DNA of 64,000 nt from Pedobacter zeaxanthinifaciens (GTDB lineage: Bacteria; Bacteroidota; Bacteroidia; Sphingobacteriales; Sphingobacteriaceae). The DNA lies in contig NZ_QMHP01000001.1 in the NCBI RefSeq assembly GCF_003313335.1, positions 310,001 to 374,000 on the forward strand, in the 5' to 3' direction. This document shows, piece by piece, positions 19,226 through 39,049 of the stretch; positions within the stretch are counted from its first letter, which is position 1, and every line of letters begins with the position of its first letter. The notes beneath the pieces were generated by a model. That model was not told the origin of the DNA, did not search any database, and saw only the letters and a program-made list of their open reading frames with translations. The translations under genes and the position numbers were made by a program.

Positions 19226-20671
19226 ATGACCGATTTCGACTTTTATAATGACTATAGTTTGATATCTGGTGTTTTTGATGAAATGAAAGGTGAGGATGGT
19301 GTGAGAAAACATTACGAATTATTTATGGCAGCTTTTCAAAACATCAATTCTGATGAGATGTCAATTAAAGATGAGCTAGCAAAAAAGTTGTTTTTAACGC
19401 AGGGCATCACGTTTACGGTATACAGTAGCGGGGAGGGCATAGAGAAAATTTTTCCATTTGATATTTATCCTAGGATTATACAGGCCGCAGAGTGGGAATT
19501 CATTGAAAGTGGCATTAAACAGCGATTGAAAGCACTTAATATTTTCTTGAAAGATGTTTATAGTCATCAATTTATCATCAAGGATGGTATTATTCCAGCT
19601 TCATTAATTTATTCGTGTCCTAATTATTTAAGGGAGATGATGAATGTAGAAGTGCCGTTTAATATTTACACACACATTAGCGGAATTGATTTAATCAGAG
19701 ATCACGATGGATCGTATTATGTATTGGAGGATAATTTACGTACGCCATCAGGGGTGAGTTACATGTTGGAAAATAGAAGCATCAGCTATAGGCTATTCCC
19801 TAATCAAATTCCAGAAAATAAAGTTCGTCCAGTGAGCGATTATCCAGATTTATTGATGAAGAACCTATTGGCGTTGGGAAACCGACATACCAGCAGGCCT
19901 ACCGTGGTTTTACTTACGCCAGGCATTTATAATTCTGCCTACTTTGAACATACTACTTTAGCCCGGTTAATGGGGATAGAGTTGGTAGAAGGTAGAGATT
20001 TGGTAGTAGATAACCATAAGGTTTATATGCGTACCACAAAAGGTTTAAAACGTGTGGACGTAATTTATAGAAGGGTAGATGACGAGTTTTTAGATCCGTT
20101 GATTTTTAGGCCAGACAGCATGCTTGGTGTACCAGGCATTTATCATGCGTATAGGAAAGGAAATGTAGCTATCATTAATGCTATGGGCAATGGCGTAGCC
20201 GATGATAAAGCGGTTTATGCCTATGTACCGGCAATGATTAAGTACTATTTAAACGAAGAGCCGATTTTAAAAAACGTACCAACTTTGCGTATGGAAAATG
20301 ATGATGAAAGGGCTCATGCTTTAGAAAACCTTCATCAAATGGTAGTAAAACGTACCAATGAAAGCGGCGGCTACGGCATGCTAATTGGAAATACGGCTAC
20401 GGAGAAAGAACTGAAGGAGTTTGCTGAGGAAATACAGAAATCGCCACGGCAGTTTATTGCGCAACCCATCATTAGCTTGTCATCTGCACCTTGCTATATT
20501 GATGGCAAATTACAGCCTAGGAGGGTTGATTTACGCCCTTTTGCATTGAGTGGCCCTGACGGAGTAGAGATTGTTCCTGGCGGCTTAACACGGGTAGCCC
20601 TAAAGGAAGGCTCAATTGTGGTGAACTCGTCACAAGGTGGCGGCAGTAAAGATACTTGGGTAGTAGATTAA
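19226..20671 (+). CDS. Circularly permuted type 2 ATP-grasp protein
   Basis: The 481-aa protein belongs to the DUF404/DUF407 circularly permuted ATP-grasp family, predicted amidoligases that join amino groups to carboxylates with ATP. Visible signatures include GIDLIRDHDGSYYVLEDNLR with TPSGVSYMLENR, a DEFLDPL segment, MGNGVADDKAVYAYVP, MVVKRTNESGGYGML (nucleotide-binding), FIAQP, and the permuted tail RRVDLRPF...VEIVPGGLTRVA. It is the first gene of the conserved trio with alpha-E (49 nt downstream) and transglutaminase. By published genome-context analysis of ATP-grasp amidoligases, such trios are predicted to make or tailor peptide-like molecules; the product is unknown. Confidence 0.92.
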   Translation: MTDFDFYNDYSLISGVFDEMKGEDGVRKHYELFMAAFQNINSDEMSIKDELAKKLFLTQGITFTVYSSGEGIEKIFPFDIYPRIIQAAEWEFIESGIKQRLKALNIFLKDVYSHQFIIKDGIIPASLIYSCPNYLREMMNVEVPFNIYTHISGIDLIRDHDGSYYVLEDNLRTPSGVSYMLENRSISYRLFPNQIPENKVRPVSDYPDLLMKNLLALGNRHTSRPTVVLLTPGIYNSAYFEHTTLARLMGIELVEGRDLVVDNHKVYMRTTKGLKRVDVIYRRVDDEFLDPLIFRPDSMLGVPGIYHAYRKGNVAIINAMGNGVADDKAVYAYVPAMIKYYLNEEPILKNVPTLRMENDDERAHALENLHQMVVKRTNESGGYGMLIGNTATEKELKEFAEEIQKSPRQFIAQPIISLSSAPCYIDGKLQPRRVDLRPFALSGPDGVEIVPGGLTRVALKEGSIVVNSSQGGGSKDTWVVD

Positions 20672-20720
20672 TGAAATTGTAGTATTGTAGAACCAACAAT
20701 CTTTTTTTAAAACAGAGAAA

Positions 20721-21650
20721 ATGCTGAGTAGAGTAGCAGAAAATATATTTTGGATGAGCAGGTATATTGAGCGAACGAACATGCAATTGCGTATTCTTCG
20801 TACTTATTATATCGCATCGCAGGATGGTGTTCCTTTTGTGAAATGGGATGAAGTTTTTAGGTATTACAACCAAGGTATGCCAGCCGAAAAAAGCATGAGT
20901 GCTAACCAGGTACTTAATTTTATTTTGTTTGATAGGGATAACGAAAGTTCAGTTGTAAACAATATCCTTAGAGCAAGGGAAAATGCTCGAAGCGCACAGG
21001 ATCACATCACCAAAGAACTTTGGCAGTGTTTGAATGATTTTTATCATTTCATTAGAGATAAAAACCTACAACGTCAATTGAGTTTAGGAGACCCGGTTAG
21101 TGTGCTAGATCAGTTGATTAGACAGTGCATGCTATATTACGGAATAGTTGATATATCAATGTTTAGGAGCGAGGGATTCAACTACTTAAATACTGGAAAA
21201 TATATTGAGCGTTTGCTGCAAATCATCAGTTCACTAAACATGCAAATTGTGCGTACCAACGGCGAAATTAAAGACAGTATGGATATCGTGAGCTGGCGGT
21301 ACTTTTTAGTTTCGATATCAGGATACGAGTACTATTTGAAATCGCATTCAGGCACCGTTAACCCGGCGTTAATTTTTAAACAAGTGCTTTATGAAATGCA
21401 TTTTCCGCATTCTATTGCGTACAGTATTTCGCAGCTTAATAGGTATGCACAACGCTTAAAAGCAGAAAGCTTAGAGGAAAGTTACGATAAACTTGAATTT
21501 TCCATAGGTAAAGCCGCCGCTATTTTGAAATATAATAGTCCCGGTTCAAATTGCGAAGCTCAATTGGCACTTTTACAATCCATCGAAAGTAATTTATTTC
21601 AAGTGGTTCAAGTTTTCAATGAGTATTATTTTGGTTCATTGGTTCATTAG
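20721..21650 (+). CDS. Alpha-E domain protein (DUF403)
   Basis: A 309-aa all-helical protein of the alpha-E family, named for its conserved helices and acidic residues. The N-terminus MLSRVAENIFWMSRYIERT is the family signature. It always travels with circularly permuted ATP-grasp genes and is thought to act with them, possibly as a partner or substrate carrier; no activity has been shown that I know of. The last codons (GSLVH, stop) are written in the TTCATTGGTTCATTAG repeat that fills the following spacer, so the natural C-terminus may have been altered by repeat expansion. Confidence 0.9.
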   Translation: MLSRVAENIFWMSRYIERTNMQLRILRTYYIASQDGVPFVKWDEVFRYYNQGMPAEKSMSANQVLNFILFDRDNESSVVNNILRARENARSAQDHITKELWQCLNDFYHFIRDKNLQRQLSLGDPVSVLDQLIRQCMLYYGIVDISMFRSEGFNYLNTGKYIERLLQIISSLNMQIVRTNGEIKDSMDIVSWRYFLVSISGYEYYLKSHSGTVNPALIFKQVLYEMHFPHSIAYSISQLNRYAQRLKAESLEESYDKLEFSIGKAAAILKYNSPGSNCEAQLALLQSIESNLFQVVQVFNEYYFGSLVH

Positions 21651-21799
21651 TTCACTGGTTCATTAGTTCATTAGTTCACTGGTTCATTAGTTCATTCGAC
21701 AATACAAATTATCACATCATCAAATTATCTAATTATCACATTATCGAATCGTCATATTATCTAATTATCACATTATCGAATCATCTCATTATCACATAA
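21636..21799. repeat. Composite AT-rich repeat: TTCATTAG array, then ATTATCACATTATCGAAT repeats
   Basis: From 21636 to about 21702, TTCATTGG/TTCATTAG/TTCACTGG units of ten nucleotides follow one another and include the alpha-E stop codon. From about 21707 to 21799 a second type takes over: a ~32-nt unit beginning CTAATTATCACATTATCGAA occurs twice in succession with minor changes. The array ends just before the transglutaminase ATG, so it forms that gene's whole leader. Confidence 0.8.
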
Positions 21800-21802
21800 A
21801 AC

Positions 21803-22774
21803 ATGCCTACTTATCACGTTAAACATTTAACCAAATACACTTATCCTTCTGCGGTTACTGATAGCGCTAATCAAATTATACTTAGCCCAACAAGTACACA
21901 GTTTCAGGATATCATCAGTCATCAAATTAAGATTAGTCCATCAACTTCTATAGATAGCTTTTACGATTATTTTGGTAATAAAGTTGGCGTGTTTACCATT
22001 GTACAGCCACATACCGAACTTTCCATTTTAGTTGAGGCCGAAGTAAGCACAAAGCAGATTCCTCCGCCTAATGATTTTTGGCCAGCGAAAGCACAGTGGG
22101 AAAATCTTGCTTCCCTGCATCAGCATATTGATTTTTTAGATTTTATGAAGGCAAACTATGTTGCTGCCCTAACAGAAATCAAACAACATACCGACGAACT
22201 TGTTGATCAACAGCTTACTATCTTCCAGTTTGTAAACAAATTGTCTACTTATGTTTATGAAACATTAACCTATCAAAAAGGCGTTACCGATGTTGAAACA
22301 GATATCGATCAAATATGGTCTTTAAAAGCAGGCGTTTGTCAAGATTTTGCTCATTTATTGATTGAGATGTTGCGCATGTACAAGGTACCATCTAGATATG
22401 TGAGCGGTTATATTTGTCCAGCAGGTAACGAATTGCGTGGCATTGGTGCTACGCATGCATGGGTAGAAGCCTACATTCCTGATTATGGCTGGATGGGAAT
22501 TGATCCTACTAACAATTGTTTGGTAGGCGATAGACACATCAGGATTGCATTTGGGCGTAACTTTAAAGATTGTACGCCAGTAAAAGGTACTTATAAAGGC
22601 TCCTCGGCCCATTCTTTGTCGGTGGCGGTAATTATTACAAATGAAAAACTAAAGCAGGAAGAAGAGGCAGTAGCGGTAGATAGTGTATATGTTAAAGAAG
22701 TTGAAGAGCCTGTAACCATTGTAAATTCGTACCAACGATTTATTGAAATGCAGCAACAACAACAGCAACAGTAA
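21803..22774 (+). CDS. Transglutaminase-like cysteine protease-fold protein
   Basis: The 323-aa protein has an N-terminal bacterial transglutaminase-associated domain (~1-85) and a transglutaminase core with the Cys-His-Asp triad C179 (AGVCQDFAH), H218 (GATHAWVEAY) and D234 (GIDPTNN). In operons with ATP-grasp and alpha-E it is expected to act as a peptidase or amide-transferring enzyme on the ligase product or a linked protein. No signal peptide is evident, so it is probably cytosolic. The C-terminus ends in seven consecutive Gln after Met (CAA/CAG run), a small repeat expansion. The gene is separated from alpha-E by a repeat-filled 152-nt spacer. Confidence 0.9.
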   Translation: MPTYHVKHLTKYTYPSAVTDSANQIILSPTSTQFQDIISHQIKISPSTSIDSFYDYFGNKVGVFTIVQPHTELSILVEAEVSTKQIPPPNDFWPAKAQWENLASLHQHIDFLDFMKANYVAALTEIKQHTDELVDQQLTIFQFVNKLSTYVYETLTYQKGVTDVETDIDQIWSLKAGVCQDFAHLLIEMLRMYKVPSRYVSGYICPAGNELRGIGATHAWVEAYIPDYGWMGIDPTNNCLVGDRHIRIAFGRNFKDCTPVKGTYKGSSAHSLSVAVIITNEKLKQEEEAVAVDSVYVKEVEEPVTIVNSYQRFIEMQQQQQQQ

Positions 22775-31482: not shown

Positions 31483-31878
31483 ATGTTCAAAGACATTCTC
31501 TCCTTCAATGGCCGTATCAGACGAACCGAATTTGGATTAATTTATCTACTTTATCTTTTATGCCTACTCATTATTGGCATTATTTCTCAAAGTGGAAATG
31601 AAATGGCAGGATTACTGATCCTATTTCCGTTTTATTTACTAGTTGTGGCCGGTATAAAACGTTGCCATGACAGGGGTAACTCCGGTTGGTGGATGATTAT
31701 CCCATTTTATGGATTTGTAATGCTTTTTGGAGATAGCGATTATGGTCCTAATGAGTATGGTGATAACCCAAAAGGACAAGGCAATGAGCCATTTATTGAC
31801 CCATTTGCACCACAATATGACAAAGCAAAAGATGTATTTGCGGAAGAAGCACCTACTGACAATTATTTAAATCAATAG
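31483..31878 (+). CDS. DUF805 membrane protein
   Basis: The 131-aa protein follows the DUF805 pattern: FNGRIRRTEFGL at the start, hydrophobic segments at ~18-36, ~42-58 and ~70-82, the KRCHDRGNSGWWMIIPF signature between them, and GPNEYGDNPKG after the last helix. The function of the family is unknown. Its 3' end overlaps the convergent cytochrome c gene by 26 bases. Confidence 0.9.
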   Translation: MFKDILSFNGRIRRTEFGLIYLLYLLCLLIIGIISQSGNEMAGLLILFPFYLLVVAGIKRCHDRGNSGWWMIIPFYGFVMLFGDSDYGPNEYGDNPKGQGNEPFIDPFAPQYDKAKDVFAEEAPTDNYLNQ

Positions 31879-32275
31879 CTACTTTTTCATATTTGTACAT
31901 GCCCTGCTTATTACCAAATGAATTGGTGATGTACACAATCACTTGCGCAACATCTATATCATGTAAATCTTTAAATGCCGGCATTTTTTCCTGATAGGTT
32001 TTGCCGTTAATTAGCATTGGCTGATTGGCGCCGTTTTTAATGTAGCAGGCTAATTGTTGTTTATTTGCTTTAAGAAACACAGTGTCGGTTAATGGTGGAG
32101 CTAATTCCCCCAAACCTTCACCATTTTTTCCGTGGCAATTTTGGCAACGAGATTCGTAAATATCTTTACCGTTAGATAAATACTTTGCCATTTCAATTTC
32201 ATCAGCGCTTTGGCAAGCATTAATTATGGCCGCGATTGCCAAAAACAGAAGACTATACAGAATGACTTTTTTCAT
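31853..32275 (-). CDS. Lipoprotein cytochrome c (single haem)
   Basis: The 140-aa exported protein has a lipoprotein signal peptide with Cys ~21 (INAC). Haem-binding CQNCH occurs at 44-48 after KDIYESR, and a distal Met in KMPAF. It would shuttle electrons at the periplasmic face of a membrane. A GTG precedes the ATG by one codon; I take the ATG at 32275. It is the last gene of the nine-gene copper/haem run and lies 11 nt after the SCO1 gene, consistent with electron delivery to or from the upstream di-haem enzymes or an oxidase. Confidence 0.88.
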   Translation of the reverse strand: MKKVILYSLLFLAIAAIINACQSADEIEMAKYLSNGKDIYESRCQNCHGKNGEGLGELAPPLTDTVFLKANKQQLACYIKNGANQPMLINGKTYQEKMPAFKDLHDIDVAQVIVYITNSFGNKQGMYKYEKVAIDLNNCQ

Positions 32276-32286
32276 CACAAATAAGA

Positions 32287-32919
32287 CTACTTTTCTGCCA
32301 ATAAGATGTCCATATCAGCTTTAAGCTTTTCAACTTCTTCTGGTTTGGTACCGTCATAAGCGCCTCTAATATGTTTTTGTTTATCAATCAAAACTAACCA
32401 ACCCTGATGTACATAGCCATCCGTAGCTGCGCTATCTTCTTGAACTGCAACTAAATAATCTTTCTCAGCTAAACCATAAACTTCTTTTTTATCTCCCCAA
32501 ACAAATTGCCATTGAGGTACATCTACTCCCAGTTTTTGCGCATATCTTTTTAATACAGAAGGTTTATCGTACTTGAAATCTATGGTATGAGATAAAAACA
32601 TCACATCTTTATTTCCCTTATATTTATCGAAGATGGTTTTCATATTGCGATGCATAATTGGGCAAATGGTGCTGCAGGATGTAAAGAAGAAATCCGCAAC
32701 GTAGATTTTATCCTTGAACGTATCCTGATTAATGTAAACACTATCTTGATTTAAGAACCTAAAGTTGGGGATTGTTTTGTAAACCGTATCAATTTTTTCG
32801 TTACCATCAGCATCTTTAGTGATTTTTGCCTCTTTATCGCCATAAATAGGAAGTTTTTTATCTTGAGTACAAGAAAAAAGAAGTGCTGCAAGTACCGGTA
32901 TCAATAAGTATTTTTTCAT
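32287..32919 (-). CDS. SCO1/SenC-family copper chaperone lipoprotein
   Basis: The 210-aa thioredoxin-fold protein has a lipoprotein signal (LFSC at 14-17). The copper-binding motif CxxxCP is at C82/C86 (FFTSCSTICPIMH) and the third ligand is H111 (FLSHTIDF). SCO proteins deliver copper to the CuA site of cytochrome oxidase or maintain cysteine redox state. Here the neighbours are YHS, MbnP and di-haem proteins rather than oxidase subunits, so a broader envelope copper role is plausible. Confidence 0.93.
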   Translation of the reverse strand: MKKYLLIPVLAALLFSCTQDKKLPIYGDKEAKITKDADGNEKIDTVYKTIPNFRFLNQDSVYINQDTFKDKIYVADFFFTSCSTICPIMHRNMKTIFDKYKGNKDVMFLSHTIDFKYDKPSVLKRYAQKLGVDVPQWQFVWGDKKEVYGLAEKDYLVAVQEDSAATDGYVHQGWLVLIDKQKHIRGAYDGTKPEEVEKLKADMDILLAEK

Positions 32920-32940
32920 TTTCCGTTTATTTTAATGTTT

Positions 32941-33207
32941 TTAATTTTCCTTTTGCGATTCCTTTTTATTTAGAAAAGCATCAGGATTTTTATCAAATTT
33001 TAACTGACATCCTTTTGCGCAAAACCAGTATTCAGTTTTTTGATAAGTACTAATATGCTTCGCTGGAGATTTCACCTTCATTTTACAAACTGGATCAATT
33101 TTAACACTGTCTGTTAAAACCAACTGCTGGTTGATTTCTGTTGCGTTGCTCTTGTAAACTGAAGTGAAGCCTAGTGCAAAAATACAGATTATTAAAGTGG
33201 TTTTCAT
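32941..33207 (-). CDS. Exported YHS-domain protein
   Basis: An 88-aa protein with a signal peptide (~1-22) and a YHS domain: DPVCKMKVKSPAKHISTYQK, then YWFCAKGCQLKFDKNPDAF. YHS domains are short metal-associated modules, often fused to or beside copper ATPases and haem-copper enzymes; the three Cys (PVCKM, FCAKGC) probably bind metal. The context between SCO1 and the lipoprotein supports copper handling in the periplasm. Confidence 0.85.
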   Translation of the reverse strand: MKTTLIICIFALGFTSVYKSNATEINQQLVLTDSVKIDPVCKMKVKSPAKHISTYQKTEYWFCAKGCQLKFDKNPDAFLNKKESQKEN

Positions 33208-33296
33208 GTGTTATGATGGGTTTATGTAGTTTGAAATAAATTATTAGAAAACAATGAGATTGCATCGCTAATAAACGAAGCAATCTCTATAAAAAG

Positions 33297-33698
33297 CTAG
33301 TTAGTAAACGGTTTAGCCTGTTTAATAGCATCCTCCAGCTGTAGTTGTACTTTTTTAACGCTATCAAGCTGATCTGTAAAGTATTTTAATGCTTCCGCTT
33401 TGCTTCCTTTAAAATCAAGTTGAAAATTATGCATCCAGTCCATCATCTTTTCATCGGCCAAGTTAAGTTGAACAATAGCTTTATTGATTTCTAGCGTATC
33501 CGCTTCTTGCTTCATGCGCTTTTGTTCAAGTAGACTATCCAACTTGAACTTGGTTTTGTTGGCTTTTTCATTTACCGCCATGGCTTCGTTATGCAAACGA
33601 TCGATAGTTTCTTTGATCGCCTCTTCATTATTTTGTTGTTGGCACGACGCAAAAATTAATACTAAGCCAACTATTAGGATATTTTTTATTTTAATCAT
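33297..33698 (-). CDS. Coiled-coil lipoprotein
   Basis: A 133-aa lipoprotein (lipobox FASC at ~16-19, then QQQNNEE). The mature chain is strongly helical, with heptad-like spacing through KETIDRLHNEAMAVNEKANK and LDSLLEQKRMKQEADTLEIN, then a WMHNFQLDF segment and DQLDSVKKVQLQLEDAI. No metal motif is seen. Similar genes recur in Bacteroidota beside SCO1/YHS genes; a scaffold or dimerising role is inference. Confidence 0.7.
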   Translation of the reverse strand: MIKIKNILIVGLVLIFASCQQQNNEEAIKETIDRLHNEAMAVNEKANKTKFKLDSLLEQKRMKQEADTLEINKAIVQLNLADEKMMDWMHNFQLDFKGSKAEALKYFTDQLDSVKKVQLQLEDAIKQAKPFTN

Positions 33699-33710
33699 GA
33701 TTATAAAATT

Positions 33711-34637
33711 TTAAAATGGAACAGAGATGTGCAACATTAGCCTGTTGCCAGCTTTGGCCCGGTTGTTTGCCAGTTCTTGAGAAACCACATTTTGGTAGTT
33801 TGCGCCGAAGGAGAATTTGCTGAAAGCGAACTCCACACCTGTAACTAAGGAGGTAGAATATCCGCCAGAAACTGCTACTTCATATTTCTGATTTTCGACA
33901 TCTTTTGTGGCTGTTTCGAAAAGGATGCCGGCATTTGGCGCAATGGTAAACTTGTGGAATAACCTAAACTTATGGTAAAGTAATGCATTTGTAGTAAGCT
34001 TATTACCATATCGATATTGGTACTTATTTGCTGTATTTACTTTGTAATTTAAGTTGACGTTAACGCCCCAATCGTTCAGCCTTACATCGTACGCGGCGTT
34101 AAAGGTAAAATCGGTACTTGCCGTGCCTAGTTGGAAGTTGTTTGGACTTTCTTGAATGGCAAGTCTTTCTCCGGGCTCATATTTACCAGTTGGCAACTTA
34201 ATTCCTGCGCCTAACCATAGCGAATGCACAAGCAGTTTACTTTTTACCGTGGCACTTTTGGTAAAAACATTATAGTAACCCATTACGGCAATATCACCCA
34301 AACCGTTCTTATCACCATTGCCTGTTTGCGCTATTCGTTGATTGAAGTTATAAGGCAAAAACGCAAGTAACCTGAACTTTTTACCAAAATTCCAAGCTCC
34401 CCAAAGCTCAGCAGTTTGATAGGTTTCATCGGTAGTTAAAGGCGTTACGTTTGCGTACGGACCTAAATGCGTTTGTAATGTTTTGTGCTGATAACGTAAA
34501 CCAATGAAACGCTTGTTGTACTCGGGCAAAATGCCGATGTAATAACTGCCAACGCCACAACCGCAAATATCACAGGCAATTGCCGTAAGTGGAGTGCAAA
34601 AAATGAGCATTACAATTAATTTTTTCCAGTTCATCAT
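33711..34637 (-). CDS. Outer-membrane beta-barrel protein with N-terminal CxxCxC cluster
   Basis: The 308-aa protein has a signal peptide ending TAIA, so the mature chain would begin CDICGCGVGSYYIG, a Cys-rich end suited to binding a soft metal such as copper. The remainder alternates amphipathic strands with aromatic girdles (FIGLRYQHKT, LLAFLPYNF, VNVNLNYKV) and ends in ISVPF, an outer-membrane barrel signature. The start ATG overlaps the preceding stop (ATGA). It could be a receptor or channel for the operon's substrate. It is not TonB-dependent, since no plug or TonB box is seen. Confidence 0.75.
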   Translation of the reverse strand: MMNWKKLIVMLIFCTPLTAIACDICGCGVGSYYIGILPEYNKRFIGLRYQHKTLQTHLGPYANVTPLTTDETYQTAELWGAWNFGKKFRLLAFLPYNFNQRIAQTGNGDKNGLGDIAVMGYYNVFTKSATVKSKLLVHSLWLGAGIKLPTGKYEPGERLAIQESPNNFQLGTASTDFTFNAAYDVRLNDWGVNVNLNYKVNTANKYQYRYGNKLTTNALLYHKFRLFHKFTIAPNAGILFETATKDVENQKYEVAVSGGYSTSLVTGVEFAFSKFSFGANYQNVVSQELANNRAKAGNRLMLHISVPF

Positions 34638-35674
34638 TGCTCGGCTAAAGTTTTATTGTTGATGAAATCTTCATCATTCAATGTGTTTAAAAATGCAGTT
34701 AGTTTATTTTTTTCGTCAGCAGTGATGCTAATTCCCCTTACACCATTTCTATTAAGCAGCGGGTCTAGATTTTCTGTTGGTTGCACTTCGGCGCTATAGT
34801 GTTGAAACACTGCATCAAGTGTTAAAAACCGACCATCATGCATAAAAGGTGCTGTGTACTTCAGGTTGCGCAACGATGGAACTTTGAATTTGTATTTGTC
34901 TGATGAAATTAGTGTAGCTCCATACAGTCCTTTGTCGTTAATAGCGCTTGGTGCCAAGCCATTGTTCCTAAACTCACCGTCAGTAAATAGCGGTTCCTTA
35001 TGGCAGCTGCCGCATTTTTCCTTGAAAATTTCATAGCCCGCCAATTCAGTTGAGGTAAAACTTGCGTTAGCTTCCTTACGCATCACTTTATCATATTTTG
35101 AGTTGCTACTGATACACATGAGCATGAACTGCGACAGAGCTTTCATCAATCTTGCTGTGTTGATTTCATCAGTTCCGAAAGCCGCTTTAAACTGATTTTT
35201 GTAAGTTGAAGATGACTGTAGTTTGGTTAATACGTTTGCTAAACTTTCGTCCATTTCTTCGTGTGCGGTAATTGGGTTAATTGGTTGAAGATCAAGATCG
35301 AATATGCCGCCTCCCCACATGAAAGCCTTGCTCCAAGCTAAGTTCATGATAGGAGGTGAGTTACGTGTGCCCAAACGGTCTTCTATACCGTGGCTAACAT
35401 CATGCCCATGCTGGGTAAAAGCCGAAGATTGAATATGACAGGAACCACAGCTAATGGTGTTATTTCTCGATAATCTGACATCGTAGAATAACTTTCTTCC
35501 CAACTCAAATCCCTCTTTTGTAATTGGATTATTGGCTAAATTATAAACCGGAGCCGGAAAGTTTTTGGGCGATTGAAAGCCTAAAAATGTTTCAGCTTGC
35601 TGCTGAACATCTTCACTTTTTTTACAGGCATAAACAAACACCAACAATAAAAATATGTATTTGAAATATTTCAT
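34634..35674 (-). CDS. Di-haem cytochrome c peroxidase/MauG-MbnH family lipoprotein (copy 2)
   Basis: The 346-aa protein has lipobox VYAC and two c-type haem motifs, CGSCH at 76-80 and 221-225, with MHDGRF (distal ligand region) near 280. The family includes bacterial cytochrome c peroxidase, MauG and MbnH. MbnH converts a Trp of its partner MbnP to kynurenine, creating a copper site. Because this gene directly follows an MbnP gene (2-nt gap), an MbnH-like role is more likely than peroxide detoxification. Confidence 0.88.
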   Translation of the reverse strand: MKYFKYIFLLLVFVYACKKSEDVQQQAETFLGFQSPKNFPAPVYNLANNPITKEGFELGRKLFYDVRLSRNNTISCGSCHIQSSAFTQHGHDVSHGIEDRLGTRNSPPIMNLAWSKAFMWGGGIFDLDLQPINPITAHEEMDESLANVLTKLQSSSTYKNQFKAAFGTDEINTARLMKALSQFMLMCISSNSKYDKVMRKEANASFTSTELAGYEIFKEKCGSCHKEPLFTDGEFRNNGLAPSAINDKGLYGATLISSDKYKFKVPSLRNLKYTAPFMHDGRFLTLDAVFQHYSAEVQPTENLDPLLNRNGVRGISITADEKNKLTAFLNTLNDEDFINNKTLAEQ

Positions 35675-35676
35675 GG

Positions 35677-36516
35677 CTAGTTTTCAGTATGATCGTGGGT
35701 AAAAAGTCCAGTGAAATTGTCGGCAACGCTTGATGAAAAATCGCCAAACATTACATTAGGATTTTGTTGAATACTGATTGTATTTTTTCCGTTGAACACT
35801 TTCATCAAATCCACAAACAAGTGAATATTACTTTGCCTATCTTTTCTAACTTTAGCAATACCTGCAGTAGTCAAGTCAATAGTGACTTTTCGGATATTAT
35901 TGATTGTTTTAACCTCATATCCACCGAAAAAACCGATGTGATATTTGAACTGCTTTTTACCCGTCGGATCACCTAATTGATCGTTACTTACCACATTTGA
36001 ATTGCCTTCGAACCTGAAAAATATATAACCAGAATTCCATCCCCAATACATGCCGCCACTATCATGATCGCCATTTGCTGCTGGGTCTAACACACCGGTT
36101 CTTTTGTCGATAGGCATAGTACTTCGCAGGCTATCAACCCCAACAATGAAACTCACTTGACTGTAATCACCTTCTGGTACTTTAACTTTTGCAAACCGAG
36201 TGGCTTTATCCGAGCCTTTGATTAGGAAATAGGAGCTATCTTGTTTCACCGTGTATTTTTGGCCGCTTGTGGTAGTAACTTCAATATTGCTAATGAAATA
36301 TTGAACCAAGCTGATGGTAAATGATTCACCTTTGGCATTGGTATAAGGCACTGCCGTATTGTTGAATGTTAATGTTCTACCTCCAACAATGTTGTCGAAC
36401 TCCACAGATAGCGGTGCTAAATTTTGCTCTTCAAAATCTGGAGTGATATCTGCTTTTTTTGAGCAAGCAGTTAATATGATTAAAAATGCTACTATTATAA
36501 AATTTGTCCTTTTCAT
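35677..36516 (-). CDS. MbnP-family copper-binding lipoprotein (copy 2)
   Basis: A 279-aa lipoprotein (LTAC, Cys 18) with the MbnP-family beta-sandwich: PLSVEFDNIVGGRTL, FTISLVQYFISNIEV, EGDYSQVSFIVGVDS, then GMYWGWNSGYIFFRFEG. The W158-x-W160 pair sits where the family places its modifiable Trp. MbnP binds copper after its partner di-haem enzyme oxidises a Trp to kynurenine; no methanobactin genes are visible here. The C-terminus ends HDHTEN, adding His ligands. It is co-transcribed with the following di-haem gene. Confidence 0.85.
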   Translation of the reverse strand: MKRTNFIIVAFLIILTACSKKADITPDFEEQNLAPLSVEFDNIVGGRTLTFNNTAVPYTNAKGESFTISLVQYFISNIEVTTTSGQKYTVKQDSSYFLIKGSDKATRFAKVKVPEGDYSQVSFIVGVDSLRSTMPIDKRTGVLDPAANGDHDSGGMYWGWNSGYIFFRFEGNSNVVSNDQLGDPTGKKQFKYHIGFFGGYEVKTINNIRKVTIDLTTAGIAKVRKDRQSNIHLFVDLMKVFNGKNTISIQQNPNVMFGDFSSSVADNFTGLFTHDHTEN

Positions 36517-36521
36517 TTTAA

Positions 36522-37589
36522 TTATCCATTTGGATCACTAACTGTTTTGTTGTTAATCAGTTCTTGATCAGTAAGTGTATTAAGGAAAGCTTTTATTGCT
36601 ACTTTTTCAGTTGTAGTTAATGGTATGCCTAAAGTCCCATTGTTTTGAAACAAATGCTTGTCAACCGTTGCTGATGGTTTGATGCCTGAGCTGTAATGGC
36701 CAAGCACCTCGTCAATGGTTTTAAACCTGCCGTCGTGCATATATGGTGCGGTAAGCATAATATTCCTGAGTGTGGGCGTTTTGAAAGCGCCAAGGTCTTG
36801 CGGATTGAATGTTACCCGGAACCTCCCTTGATAAATCCCCTCTACATCATCACTGAAACTAATGTCGATTCCATTATTGTGAAATTTGTTATCGGTAAAT
36901 AATTCACCTTGATGGCAGCTTTTACATTTTTCTTCCACCAGCTTTAACCCCTGTAGTTCCATTTCACTGAGGGTTATTCCTTCGTTACGTTTAAATTTGT
37001 CGTAGCGGGAACCTGCCGATATTAATGTGCGCTGAAATTGTGCCAGCGCCTTCACCACATTAGCTGAGGTAATTCCGTTATTAAAAGCCTTTTCAAAAAG
37101 TTCCCTATATTTTGGTACCGCCTTTAACTCTGCCTCCAGTTCGTATAGGTTTTGCGCCATCTCGTCTGAACTCGTTAACGGTCCAAAAGCTTGTGATTCT
37201 AAATTAGTAGAACCGCCATCCCAAAAAAGCCCGCTATTGGCCCAAAGCAAATTAAAGATAGTGGGGGTGTGCCGATGTAACTGTTGTTTAGAAACACCAG
37301 TATCATTTAAAGCCACCCCATCACTAAATGCCAATTGCGGTTGATGGCATGAAGCACAAGATAATTGGTTATTTCCCGAAAGTCTTTTATCGTAAAACAG
37401 CAAACGACCTAATGCCACACCACTTTTAGTTAAGGGGTTGTCTACATCATCAACCCAAGCAGGCATGTTATTAGGCAAAGCGAGGTGATACTTTTCATCA
37501 TCGACCATAAGGTTAGTTTCCTCCTTTTTACAGGAAGAAACTAACAGCAATAAAGCTAAGCATAAAGTATACGCAGTAACTTTAGTCAT
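36522..37589 (-). CDS. Di-haem cytochrome c peroxidase/MauG-MbnH family lipoprotein (copy 1)
   Basis: The 355-aa paralogue of the gene at 34634-35674 has lipobox VSSC (Cys 20), haem motifs CASCH at 78-82 and CKSCH at 222-226, and MHDGRF late in the chain. Compared with copy 2 it has different surface loops and a longer lead before the first haem, so the two are divergent rather than a recent duplication. It lies 2 nt after MbnP copy 1, forming the first MbnP/MbnH-like pair. Confidence 0.88.
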   Translation of the reverse strand: MTKVTAYTLCLALLLLVSSCKKEETNLMVDDEKYHLALPNNMPAWVDDVDNPLTKSGVALGRLLFYDKRLSGNNQLSCASCHQPQLAFSDGVALNDTGVSKQQLHRHTPTIFNLLWANSGLFWDGGSTNLESQAFGPLTSSDEMAQNLYELEAELKAVPKYRELFEKAFNNGITSANVVKALAQFQRTLISAGSRYDKFKRNEGITLSEMELQGLKLVEEKCKSCHQGELFTDNKFHNNGIDISFSDDVEGIYQGRFRVTFNPQDLGAFKTPTLRNIMLTAPYMHDGRFKTIDEVLGHYSSGIKPSATVDKHLFQNNGTLGIPLTTTEKVAIKAFLNTLTDQELINNKTVSDPNG

Positions 37590-37591
37590 TT

Positions 37592-38380
37592 TTAGTTTAC
37601 TGAGACTACGCTAAAAACCTTCGTATTATAATTGTTGGCAACGGCTGTCATTGTGGTCGCTTGTGCAGCACCAACAGTTGGTGTAGTTATTACATCAATA
37701 CCGTCTAATGCCATGCCTACATCTGCTTTTAAGTTAATAGCTGTAGCCTTTGATGAGCCAATTTTTACGTTTTGAGGGAAGCTCAACGAAACCGTTTTAT
37801 AGTTGGCATTGAGGCCTGTTTCAACTTTTATTGTTTTGTTGGTTGTTCCCTCGGTAACTTTTCCACCAACGGCGGTAAAAATATAGCTAGTGTGCCACAT
37901 CCAAGATACATTCGTCATTCCGTTCAATTGGGAAAGTTCTCCAATAGTTAAACTTAGGTTGTCGTTATATTTTTGCTCAACGCCAATTCCGAATTTGATG
38001 CCTTTATAATCGCCAGCGGCAATGTTAGTGAGCTCAACTGATTCACGCTTGTTGGCAGGATAGGTATAAGCCCCTTCCTGTACGGCAACTGCTGAAGTTT
38101 CCTCTAACAAATAGCATGATTTAGGAACGCTAACCTCCTCGCCATTGGCCTTGATTAAAACTATATTGCTTACCCAATACCTAAACTTATCAAAGTTGTA
38201 GGTTTTTGTGCCTGAGGTAAAATTTGTATTTAGAGCGAAATCAGATGTCCCAAAAACCGCATCAAAGTTAACAGTAACTTTCCCCGGGATATCTAGTGTT
38301 TCAGTAATAGCATCATCTTTTTTATCGCAAGAAGAGAAAATGATAGCAGCAGTAATTAATAAAAGAATATTTTTTTTCAT
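37592..38380 (-). CDS. MbnP-family copper-binding lipoprotein (copy 1)
   Basis: The 262-aa protein has lipobox FSSC (Cys 18), then GKVTVNFDAVFG, KFRYWVSNIVL, AAGDYKGIKFGIGVE and SWMWHTSYIFTAVGG. W160-x-W162 aligns with the WxW of copy 2, followed by Y-I-F in both. It is the first gene of the operon; a 7-bp inverted repeat lies 16 nt upstream of its ATG. Overall similarity to copy 2 is low outside the motif blocks, suggesting distinct partners or substrates. Confidence 0.83.
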   Translation of the reverse strand: MKKNILLLITAAIIFSSCDKKDDAITETLDIPGKVTVNFDAVFGTSDFALNTNFTSGTKTYNFDKFRYWVSNIVLIKANGEEVSVPKSCYLLEETSAVAVQEGAYTYPANKRESVELTNIAAGDYKGIKFGIGVEQKYNDNLSLTIGELSQLNGMTNVSWMWHTSYIFTAVGGKVTEGTTNKTIKVETGLNANYKTVSLSFPQNVKIGSSKATAINLKADVGMALDGIDVITTPTVGAAQATTMTAVANNYNTKVFSVVSVN

Positions 38381-38396
38381 TTTGTATAAGTGACAA

Positions 38397-38413
38397 TTCT
38401 GCTATAAGCAGAA
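38397..38413. promoter_or_regulatory. Perfect palindrome upstream of the MbnP operon
   Basis: TTCTGCT (38397-38403) and AGCAGAA (38407-38413) form a perfect 7-bp inverted repeat with spacer ATA, 16 nt before the first ATG of the operon. It could be an operator or a leader hairpin covering the ribosome-binding region. No TAnnTTTG box is apparent nearby. Confidence 0.5.
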
Positions 38414-38671
38414 GAAAGTGATTTAATTAATAAGATTGATATCGATTATACCCGTTTGATACTAGTTTACTTGTATTTAGGGTATGTTAAATGCATTACC
38501 GAGATGGTATTCAACATTAAAACATATTTTATGTTAGAGATGATGAACCGCATTCACGATAATTTTAATATGAGTAGTTGTGGCATTTAACCCAACTGAT
38601 TTTTGCAGTATAGCAGAAAAGCAGACCTTATATTTAAGGCCGTAGCATACAGCATACCACAAAAATTGAAA

Positions 38672-39049
38672 TTAAACTGTTTTAGGAGGATGAAAGATAT
38701 TGTTAACAGCGCCGATTGGACTTTTTTGTAGGTAATGAGGAACTGAATAAGGAAGGTTTTCTTCAAAATTTTCGAAAACCAACGATGCCAATTGTGGCGC
38801 CACGCTCTCGATCAAGCGTTTAGAATGCTCCTGTTCCTGTTTGTTTTTTTGCTCCAGCTCTTTCAATTTAATGTCTAAAAAACATTTACCCTCACAATGA
38901 AGTTGAGGTTTATCTTTATTAGAACATAAAACAGTGGAGATATAAGATTTATTGAAGTGGTAAGAAGATGAGATAATCAAGTAGTTGAAGCTATTCGACA
39001 ATACGCCGAACAATAAAACTACTGCAATTAACCTTCTTAATAGTAACAT
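38672..39049 (-). CDS. Small CxGKC membrane protein upstream of the MbnP operon
   Basis: A 125-aa protein with an N-terminal hydrophobic segment (~5-28), a Cys-containing part (VLCSNKDKPQLHCEGKCFLD) and a Lys/Glu/Gln-rich helix. The HCxGKC triad looks like a soft-metal site, on the periplasmic side if the hydrophobic segment is an anchor. Related proteins in Bacteroidota lie near copper/haem genes. A consensus promoter precedes the ATG by only 5 nt. The next gene downstream on the strand is MbnP copy 1 after 291 nt. Function unknown. Confidence 0.65.
   Translation of the reverse strand: MLLLRRLIAVVLLFGVLSNSFNYLIISSSYHFNKSYISTVLCSNKDKPQLHCEGKCFLDIKLKELEQKNKQEQEHSKRLIESVAPQLASLVFENFEENLPYSVPHYLQKSPIGAVNNIFHPPKTV

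Follow-up and report, generated by a model that had tools for sequence, protein, structure and literature searches.

The 64,000-nt stretch of the Pedobacter zeaxanthinifaciens genome analysed here, hereafter the window, carries on its minus strand an operon in which a gene for an MbnP, followed by a gene for its di-haem MauG/MbnH-like partner, occurs twice. An earlier interpretation made from the letters of the DNA (the sequence-only reading) had placed nine genes at 31853-38380, with gaps of -4 to ~90 nt between them. All nine open reading frames (ORFs) were found at these coordinates and in the order given there, Pfam matches support the naming of MbnP, CCP_MauG, YHS, SCO1/SenC and cytochrome c, and the gaps from the first MbnP gene onward were measured as -4 to 89 nt. 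A tenth gene on the same strand, not included in that reading, encodes a leader protein (UP) and lies 291 nt upstream of the first MbnP gene. The transcription order is UP, P1 (first MbnP), H1 (partner of P1), P2 (second MbnP), H2 (partner of P2), BAR (predicted outer-membrane barrel), LPP (coiled-coil lipoprotein), YHS, SCO1 and cytochrome c (Table 1). The window's genome contains exactly two MbnPs (P1 and P2), six CCP_MauG proteins including H1 and H2, and two haem-copper oxidase subunits I. In agreement with the earlier statement that methanobactin genes are missing, the MbnB family PF05114 has no match in this genome, other mbn genes not having been searched individually.

The expected copper-ligand positions of P1 and P2

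Domain searches bore out the MbnP assignment, as both proteins exceed the gathering cut-off of 27 bits for PF20243 (Table 1); neither reaches the equivalog cut-off of 140 bits for TIGR04052 (P1 37.5 bits, P2 38.6 bits). Both carry the WxW motif, as WMW in P1 and WGW in P2. By Pfam the MbnP and MbnH-like pair is indeed doubled, but P1-H1 and P2-H2 are not equivalent. The published MbnP site reportedly comprises a His, a Met, solvent and a kynurenine derived from the first Trp of WxW. Among 199 distinct MbnPs both Trps and one His column are near-invariant, and one further column is Met or His; P2 has both of these residues (H193, M256), whereas P1 has neither (E187, G237). P2 alone gave no match to PDB sequences, and as a profile it matched the MbnP structure 7l6g (E 0.00037), which aligns a His at the His193 column of P2. 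The alignment of 7l6g also keeps a Met in its C-terminal part, and 7l6g shares the His and a Met with a TIGR04052 protein in the matching region, Met256 of P2 being matched to the Met of 7l6g by region and not residue by residue.

When the ligand and WxW columns were left out of tree building, the window's P1 fell into a clade of 83 sequences with support 1.0; 8 of 91 sequences labelled P1 by best score, 7 of which have the His, lay outside this clade and were excluded from the P1 counts. Within the clade the His column is acidic in 83/83 and the motif is WMW in 83/83, and the Met column holds Gly (57), Ser (15), Asn (10) or Asp (1), with no Met or His. Outside the clade, 109 of the 116 MbnPs have the His, and in 106 the second column holds Met or His. 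Judged from these alignments, P1 beyond doubt lacks the His and very probably lacks the Met. Moreover, fixation reaches at least 95% in the P1 clade, against less than 50% elsewhere, at 20 columns, among them R67, W69, E148, M155, M161, E187, N191 and M244, and the clade shares an inserted R112-E113. M155 and M161 reach 100% and M244 reaches 96% in the clade, and W69 is invariant. So many newly fixed positions speak against decay of P1.

Many sequences of the clade had been collected with a P1-based search of named genomes whose pattern contained WMW; hence, the search was repeated with a pattern-free profile on the genus genomes. This search of 145 genus genomes gave 35 P1-type matches of at least 313 bits in 33 genomes, all other matches scoring at most 119.6 bits, and the 30 P1s taken from it showed WMW in 30/30 and Glu in 30/30. 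A phylum sample of 95 MbnPs, from which the window's two loci, two of G056 (obtained earlier), one of G084 and the three weakest were left out, had the His in 93, Met or His in 81 and WxW in 86, and included no P1-like protein.

A structure model of P1 (pLDDT 88.4) gave a VIA Z of 15.5 over 204 residues (3.9 A) with MbnP 7l6g of Methylosinus, the next match scoring 6.9, and the only strong match of the model in Foldseek was the same Methylosinus MbnP, in six chains with E about 1e-7. As modelled, P1 retains the MbnP fold.

Two other observations concern altered MbnPs. Four Dyadobacter proteins that scored as P2 (L104:4320-5231, L106:4323-5234, L109:4455-5276 and L112:4421-5290) have lost WxW (S/T..A) and carry Gln in place of the His; they adjoin an intact di-haem gene and form a further class of altered MbnP, unlike P1. 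At G354:C24:677148-677903, another P1-type copy, interrupted by an internal TAA, lies on the opposite strand.

Di-haem partners and recurrence of the tandem

H1 and H2 both match CCP_MauG PF03150 (Table 1), and the best solved relative of both is MbnH 6e1c (H1 E 1.2e-47, H2 E 3.8e-41); neither reaches the TIGR04039 cut-off of 362.85 bits (H1 243.5 bits, H2 219.5 bits). Two CxxCH haem motifs were present in all H1 and H2 proteins examined. At 14 residues after the His of the HDG motif, a position that we take to be that of MauG Tyr294, there is a Tyr and not the peroxidase Met in 82/83 H1 and 99/99 H2 proteins, and a Trp is found at W123/W120 in 81/83 H1 and 93/99 H2. The solved relative and this Tyr agree with the MbnH-type partners that the sequence-only reading had proposed. 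Neighbouring genes pair by type, with 88 P1-H1 and 104 P2-H2 pairs and 3 mixed pairs with near-tied scores. In a tree of 66 randomly drawn rows (27 from the 74 P1 partners, 39 from the 102 others), H1 forms one side of a branch with an SH-aLRT of 99.

MbnP occurs in 49/59 related genomes and in 78/296 genomes across the phylum, and P1 points to Pedobacter chitinilyticus and P. ureilyticus as the nearest named organisms. A first set of 40 stretches contained the tandem in nine other genus genomes; some of these stretches held P2-H2-BAR alone, including G033, whose genes resemble those of the window closely. The P1-based search of named genomes left 79 loci, 66 of which hold both complete pairs, so that the gene order sought in other Bacteroidota is conserved there. 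The order is P1-H1-P2-H2 in 43/79 loci and P2-H2-P1-H1 in 9/79 (Flavobacterium, Leeuwenhoekiella, Sinomicrobium), and both pairs stand in other orders in 14/79, mainly Dyadobacter, where UP heads each block on its own; 2/79 are cut by a contig end, and 11/79 are of other kinds, several of these also cut. Of the 43 contiguous P1-H1-P2-H2 tandems, 41 are immediately preceded by UP and 42 immediately followed by BAR. Since the search was made with P1, the presence of P1 is given by construction, but that of a neighbouring P2-H2 is not, and a gene order common to other genomes makes the arrangement more than chance.

Among the 33 P1-bearing genus genomes, a second MbnP lies within 3 kb of P1 in 31; of the other two, G424 (= L077) is cut by a contig end and the remaining genome is incomplete. 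Of the 95 MbnPs of the phylum sample, 92 have an MbnH-like gene next to them, 37 have UP immediately upstream and 31 have BAR nearby. The distribution of P1 is patchy but wide, reaching Myxococcota and Comamonas records. In one Comamonas locus (L149:5879-13951), two TIGR04052-type MbnP-MbnH pairs and a SCO1 gene flank a P1-clade gene with its di-haem partner.

The leader protein and the remaining operon genes

Conservation of UP is concentrated in islands. In 134 distinct relatives C42, C52, G54 and C56 are present in 134/134 and the two prolines in 132/134 and 133/134, and no column between about residues 69-118 reaches 50%; of the 132 relatives having both motifs, 128 have the Cys motif and PP separated by 64-73 residues. 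UP has HPP near the C-terminus, with three residues following PP, and its N-terminal segment appears hydrophobic by inspection. There is one UP copy in the window's genome. A Cys motif and a C-terminal Pro motif were both shown to be needed for copper control in CutF (PMC9973294) and in CruR (PMC9426467). By analogy, UP would add evidence for a copper-responsive operon; because copper acts oppositely in CutF and CruR, the sign of the response at UP is not predictable from them. CutF-like proteins have already been reported as common in Bacteroidota (PMC9973294), so that UP at most adds a member to a known group.

The gap behind UP is long (medians of 149 and 111 nt, versus 4-10 nt inside the operon), and in the window's genome its local RNA fold is strong (z -4.81 over 341 nt), with a strong hairpin at 38590-38670, immediately behind the UP stop codon. 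A conserved RNA switch was considered and rejected, as the same stretch gave z values of 0.2, 0.0 and -0.8 in L072, L073 and L065, and RNA structure was not enriched in 182 post-UP stretches, with a mean z of -1.64 compared with -1.20 for stretches behind P, -1.40 behind BAR and -1.18 behind SCO. A promoter and terminator scan gave 24 promoter-like sites, where 25.6 were expected, and 8 terminator-like sites, where 5.0 were expected.

Neither BAR nor LPP has a Pfam match. C22, C25 and C27 of BAR are invariant in 31/31 aligned sequences, and CxxCxC is found in 81/85; a typical AxA cleavage site precedes the motif, which is predicted to lie at the N-terminus of the mature protein. The BAR model (pLDDT 82.5) has FapF 5o67 as its best Foldseek match (E 1.5e-10) and also matches the COG4313 channel 4rl8. 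The predicted protein is an outer-membrane barrel resembling these two, and its cysteines may act as a copper clamp at the pore mouth. CxxxCP is present in 53/55 SCO1 relatives and WM[HRKN] in 34/38 LPP relatives; LPP is often found beside SCO1, and W-M-H is a possible copper-binding motif. A lipobox-like Cys was seen in P1, H1, P2, H2, LPP, SCO1 and the cytochrome. After this Cys, P1 (CDKKDD) and H1 (CKKEE) have runs of Lys and acidic residues, presumably akin to the surface-export signals of Bacteroidota lipoproteins. Elsewhere in the window, at 19226-22774, three genes resemble what we take to be a set of circularly permuted ATP-grasp, alpha-E and transglutaminase-like proteins.

Table 1. 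Coordinates of the operon features within the window
Feature	Position	Strand	Evidence
UP, 125-aa leader protein, CutF/CruR-like	38672..39049	-	134 distinct relatives, conserved motifs
UP CxGxC motif, C52-C56	38882..38896	-	relatives' alignment and ORF coordinates
UP C-terminal PP, P121-P122	38684..38689	-	relatives' alignment
UP-P1 gap, 291 nt	38381..38671	-	strong local RNA fold in own genome, not conserved
P1, divergent MbnP, 262 aa, lipoprotein	37592..38380	-	PF20243 126.2 bits, clade, model
P1 WMW, W160-M161-W162	37895..37903	-	alignment
P1 Glu187 at the MbnP His position	37820..37822	-	alignment
H1, di-haem MauG/MbnH-like lipoprotein, P1 partner	36522..37589	-	PF03150 188 bits, own clade
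P2, canonical-type MbnP, 279 aa, lipoprotein	35677..36516	-	PF20243 167 bits, conserved columns
P2 WGW, W158-G159-W160	36037..36045	-	alignment
P2 His193, sole near-invariant His of the family	35938..35940	-	alignments
P2 Met256, column Met/His in most MbnPs	35749..35751	-	alignments
H2, di-haem MauG/MbnH-like lipoprotein, P2 partner	34634..35674	-	PF03150 180.5 bits
BAR, predicted outer-membrane barrel, predicted mature N-terminus CDICGC (CxxCxC)	33711..34637	-	alignment, model, Foldseek
LPP, coiled-coil lipoprotein, W-M-H motif	33297..33698	-	relatives; no Pfam family
YHS-domain protein	32941..33207	-	PF04945 45.6 bits
SCO1/SenC copper chaperone, CxxxCP	32287..32919	-	PF02630 76.7 bits
Monohaem cytochrome c lipoprotein	31853..32278	-	PF13442 and PF00034

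Possible roles of the two pairs and comparison with known systems

We consider it rather probable that the locus is a copper-sensed envelope copper operon, in which one pair is of the standard kynurenine-copper kind and the other is neofunctionalised and would be unable to build the known Cu(I) site. By inference from CutF and CruR, nascent UP would sense copper via its Cys motif during export and would pause or release the ribosome at the C-terminal PP, setting the expression of the downstream genes. H2 would oxidise the first Trp of the WxW of P2 to kynurenine, P2 would then bind Cu(I) through His193 and Met256, and SCO1, YHS, cytochrome c and the Cys-tailed BAR may carry copper and electrons to or from this site. 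The sequence-only reading had described the pair as doubled; as the conserved His and Met are gone from P1, the kynurenine-copper chemistry may be assumed for P2-H2 only. P1-H1 would be an old, neofunctionalised copy of the pair, in which P1 has probably evolved a second role, differing from that of known MbnP. H1 probably still oxidises a Trp of P1, and since P1 keeps the fold, the Trps and its own enzyme but not the His and Met, the product is probably not the known Cu(I)-kynurenine site. Moreover, P1 is rarely found without a nearby P2-H2, whereas P2-H2 is often found without P1, which makes it more likely that P1-H1 is accessory to P2-H2.

As to what the accessory pair might do, we tentatively propose, with less than even confidence, that P1-H1 constitutes another MauG-type system built on the MbnP fold, in which a Trp-derived group (from WMW, perhaps with W69) other than copper-kynurenine would serve as a redox partner or metal-transfer station beside P2-H2 under one copper-sensing leader. 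Alternatively, P1 may bind copper via a rebuilt site, where M155, M161, M244, a Trp and Glu187 replace His and Met, as in the CusF-like Met/Trp Cu(I) sites, and the two pairs would differ in affinity or redox properties and pass copper between them. The near-fixation of the three Met residues, the invariant W69 and the same operon and copper neighbours for both pairs are consistent with such a site, but an acidic residue in place of the sole conserved His would be unusual for Cu(I), and we regard this explanation as possible though doubtful. A cross-link, quinone or other oxidised Trp, made by H1 as a metal-free redox or structural group, would fit the WMW together with the third invariant Trp of P1, as well as an H1 clade of its own, whose members keep the haem motifs and the MauG-type Tyr; it is without known precedent in the MbnP fold and seems rather unlikely.

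That P1 is decaying, or serves as a pseudo-substrate, and is retained through linkage might be suspected from the loss of both ligands and from the genus genome whose second P1 copy bears an internal stop. However, the 20 newly fixed positions extend across 83 sequences from many genera, the partner enzyme is kept, and P1-H1 stays paired through three different gene orders; decay was rejected on the newly fixed positions and is in our view very unlikely. The broad scope of CCP_MauG and the scores below the TIGR04039 and TIGR04052 cut-offs would also suit two ordinary peroxidases beside unrelated copper-storage lipoproteins, but MbnH is the best solved relative of both enzymes, the Tyr occupies the MauG-type position, and a di-haem gene adjoins nearly every MbnP of the phylum sample, leaving this explanation very unlikely as well.

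Several points weigh against a neofunctionalised P1-H1 pair in a copper-sensed operon. Met residues that are invariant or nearly so at M155, M161 and M244 suggest that P1 may bind Cu(I) in another way. Two MbnPs outside the P1 clade are acidic at the His column, yet retain the Met. The H1 clade has a support of just 0.51 in a larger FastTree tree, the Foldseek TM of P1 to 7l6g is moderate (0.42-0.49), and P1 is rare, being found in 1/395 genomes of a class-wide sample, the window's own. UP has no match to DUF2946 or any other Pfam family at E 0.01 and no NCBIfam match, and no conserved RNA structure follows UP in close relatives or across the 182 post-UP stretches. The His and Met are reportedly the copper ligands of MbnP, the support here being their conservation.

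To our knowledge, MbnP is among very few proteins that make a metal site through Trp oxidation. By keeping the Trps and a dedicated enzyme and exchanging the copper ligands, P1 would separate the two halves of this chemistry, and such a paralogue makes it testable whether Trp oxidation occurs without the metal site, whether other MauG-type products arise and why both forms are kept together. UP would tie the operon to nascent-chain copper sensing in Bacteroidota.

A literature search, with the original MbnP and MbnH papers outside its reach, returned no report of ligand-less MbnPs, and the main text of the CutF study (PMC9973294) names neither MbnP nor MauG. The sequence-only reading had suggested a pathway unlike that of methanotrophs. 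The arrangement does recur across Bacteroidota, and the window's genome has no MbnB match, but earlier work had already placed MbnPH outside methanobactin operons: according to PMC3621798 it occurs far beyond methanobactin producers, and according to PMC9426467 MbnPH-like genes are found in CruR-headed copper operons. BAR shares the barrel fold of FapF and the COG4313 channels at 12-14% identity, and its N-terminal CxxCxC is its own, being absent from the proteins compared.

CutF (Rhodobacter capsulatus) and CruR/DUF2946 (Bordetella pertussis) resemble UP in being small exported proteins with a Cys motif, a near-fixed spacing and a PP near the C-terminus, encoded by the first gene of copper operons. 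The motif is CxxxC in CutF, CXXC in CruR and CxGxC with the additional invariant Cys42 in UP, and the spacing from Cys motif to PP is 45 residues in CruR versus 64-73 in the UP family. CorA-CorB (Methylomicrobium album) and MopE-SACCP (Methylococcus capsulatus) likewise combine a copper protein bearing a Trp-derived kynurenine with an adjacent di-haem cytochrome c peroxidase-like gene (PMC3912023); CorA and MopE differ in having two His ligands and a Kyn-x-His motif. The MbnP-MbnH of Methylosinus trichosporium OB3b (7l6g, 6e1c) shares fold or family, gene pairing and WxW with both pairs described here, and the conserved His and Met with P2 but not with P1. In contrast to the OB3b system, no methanobactin genes lie nearby, and P1 and P2 are short lipoproteins that score far under the TIGR04052 cut-off.

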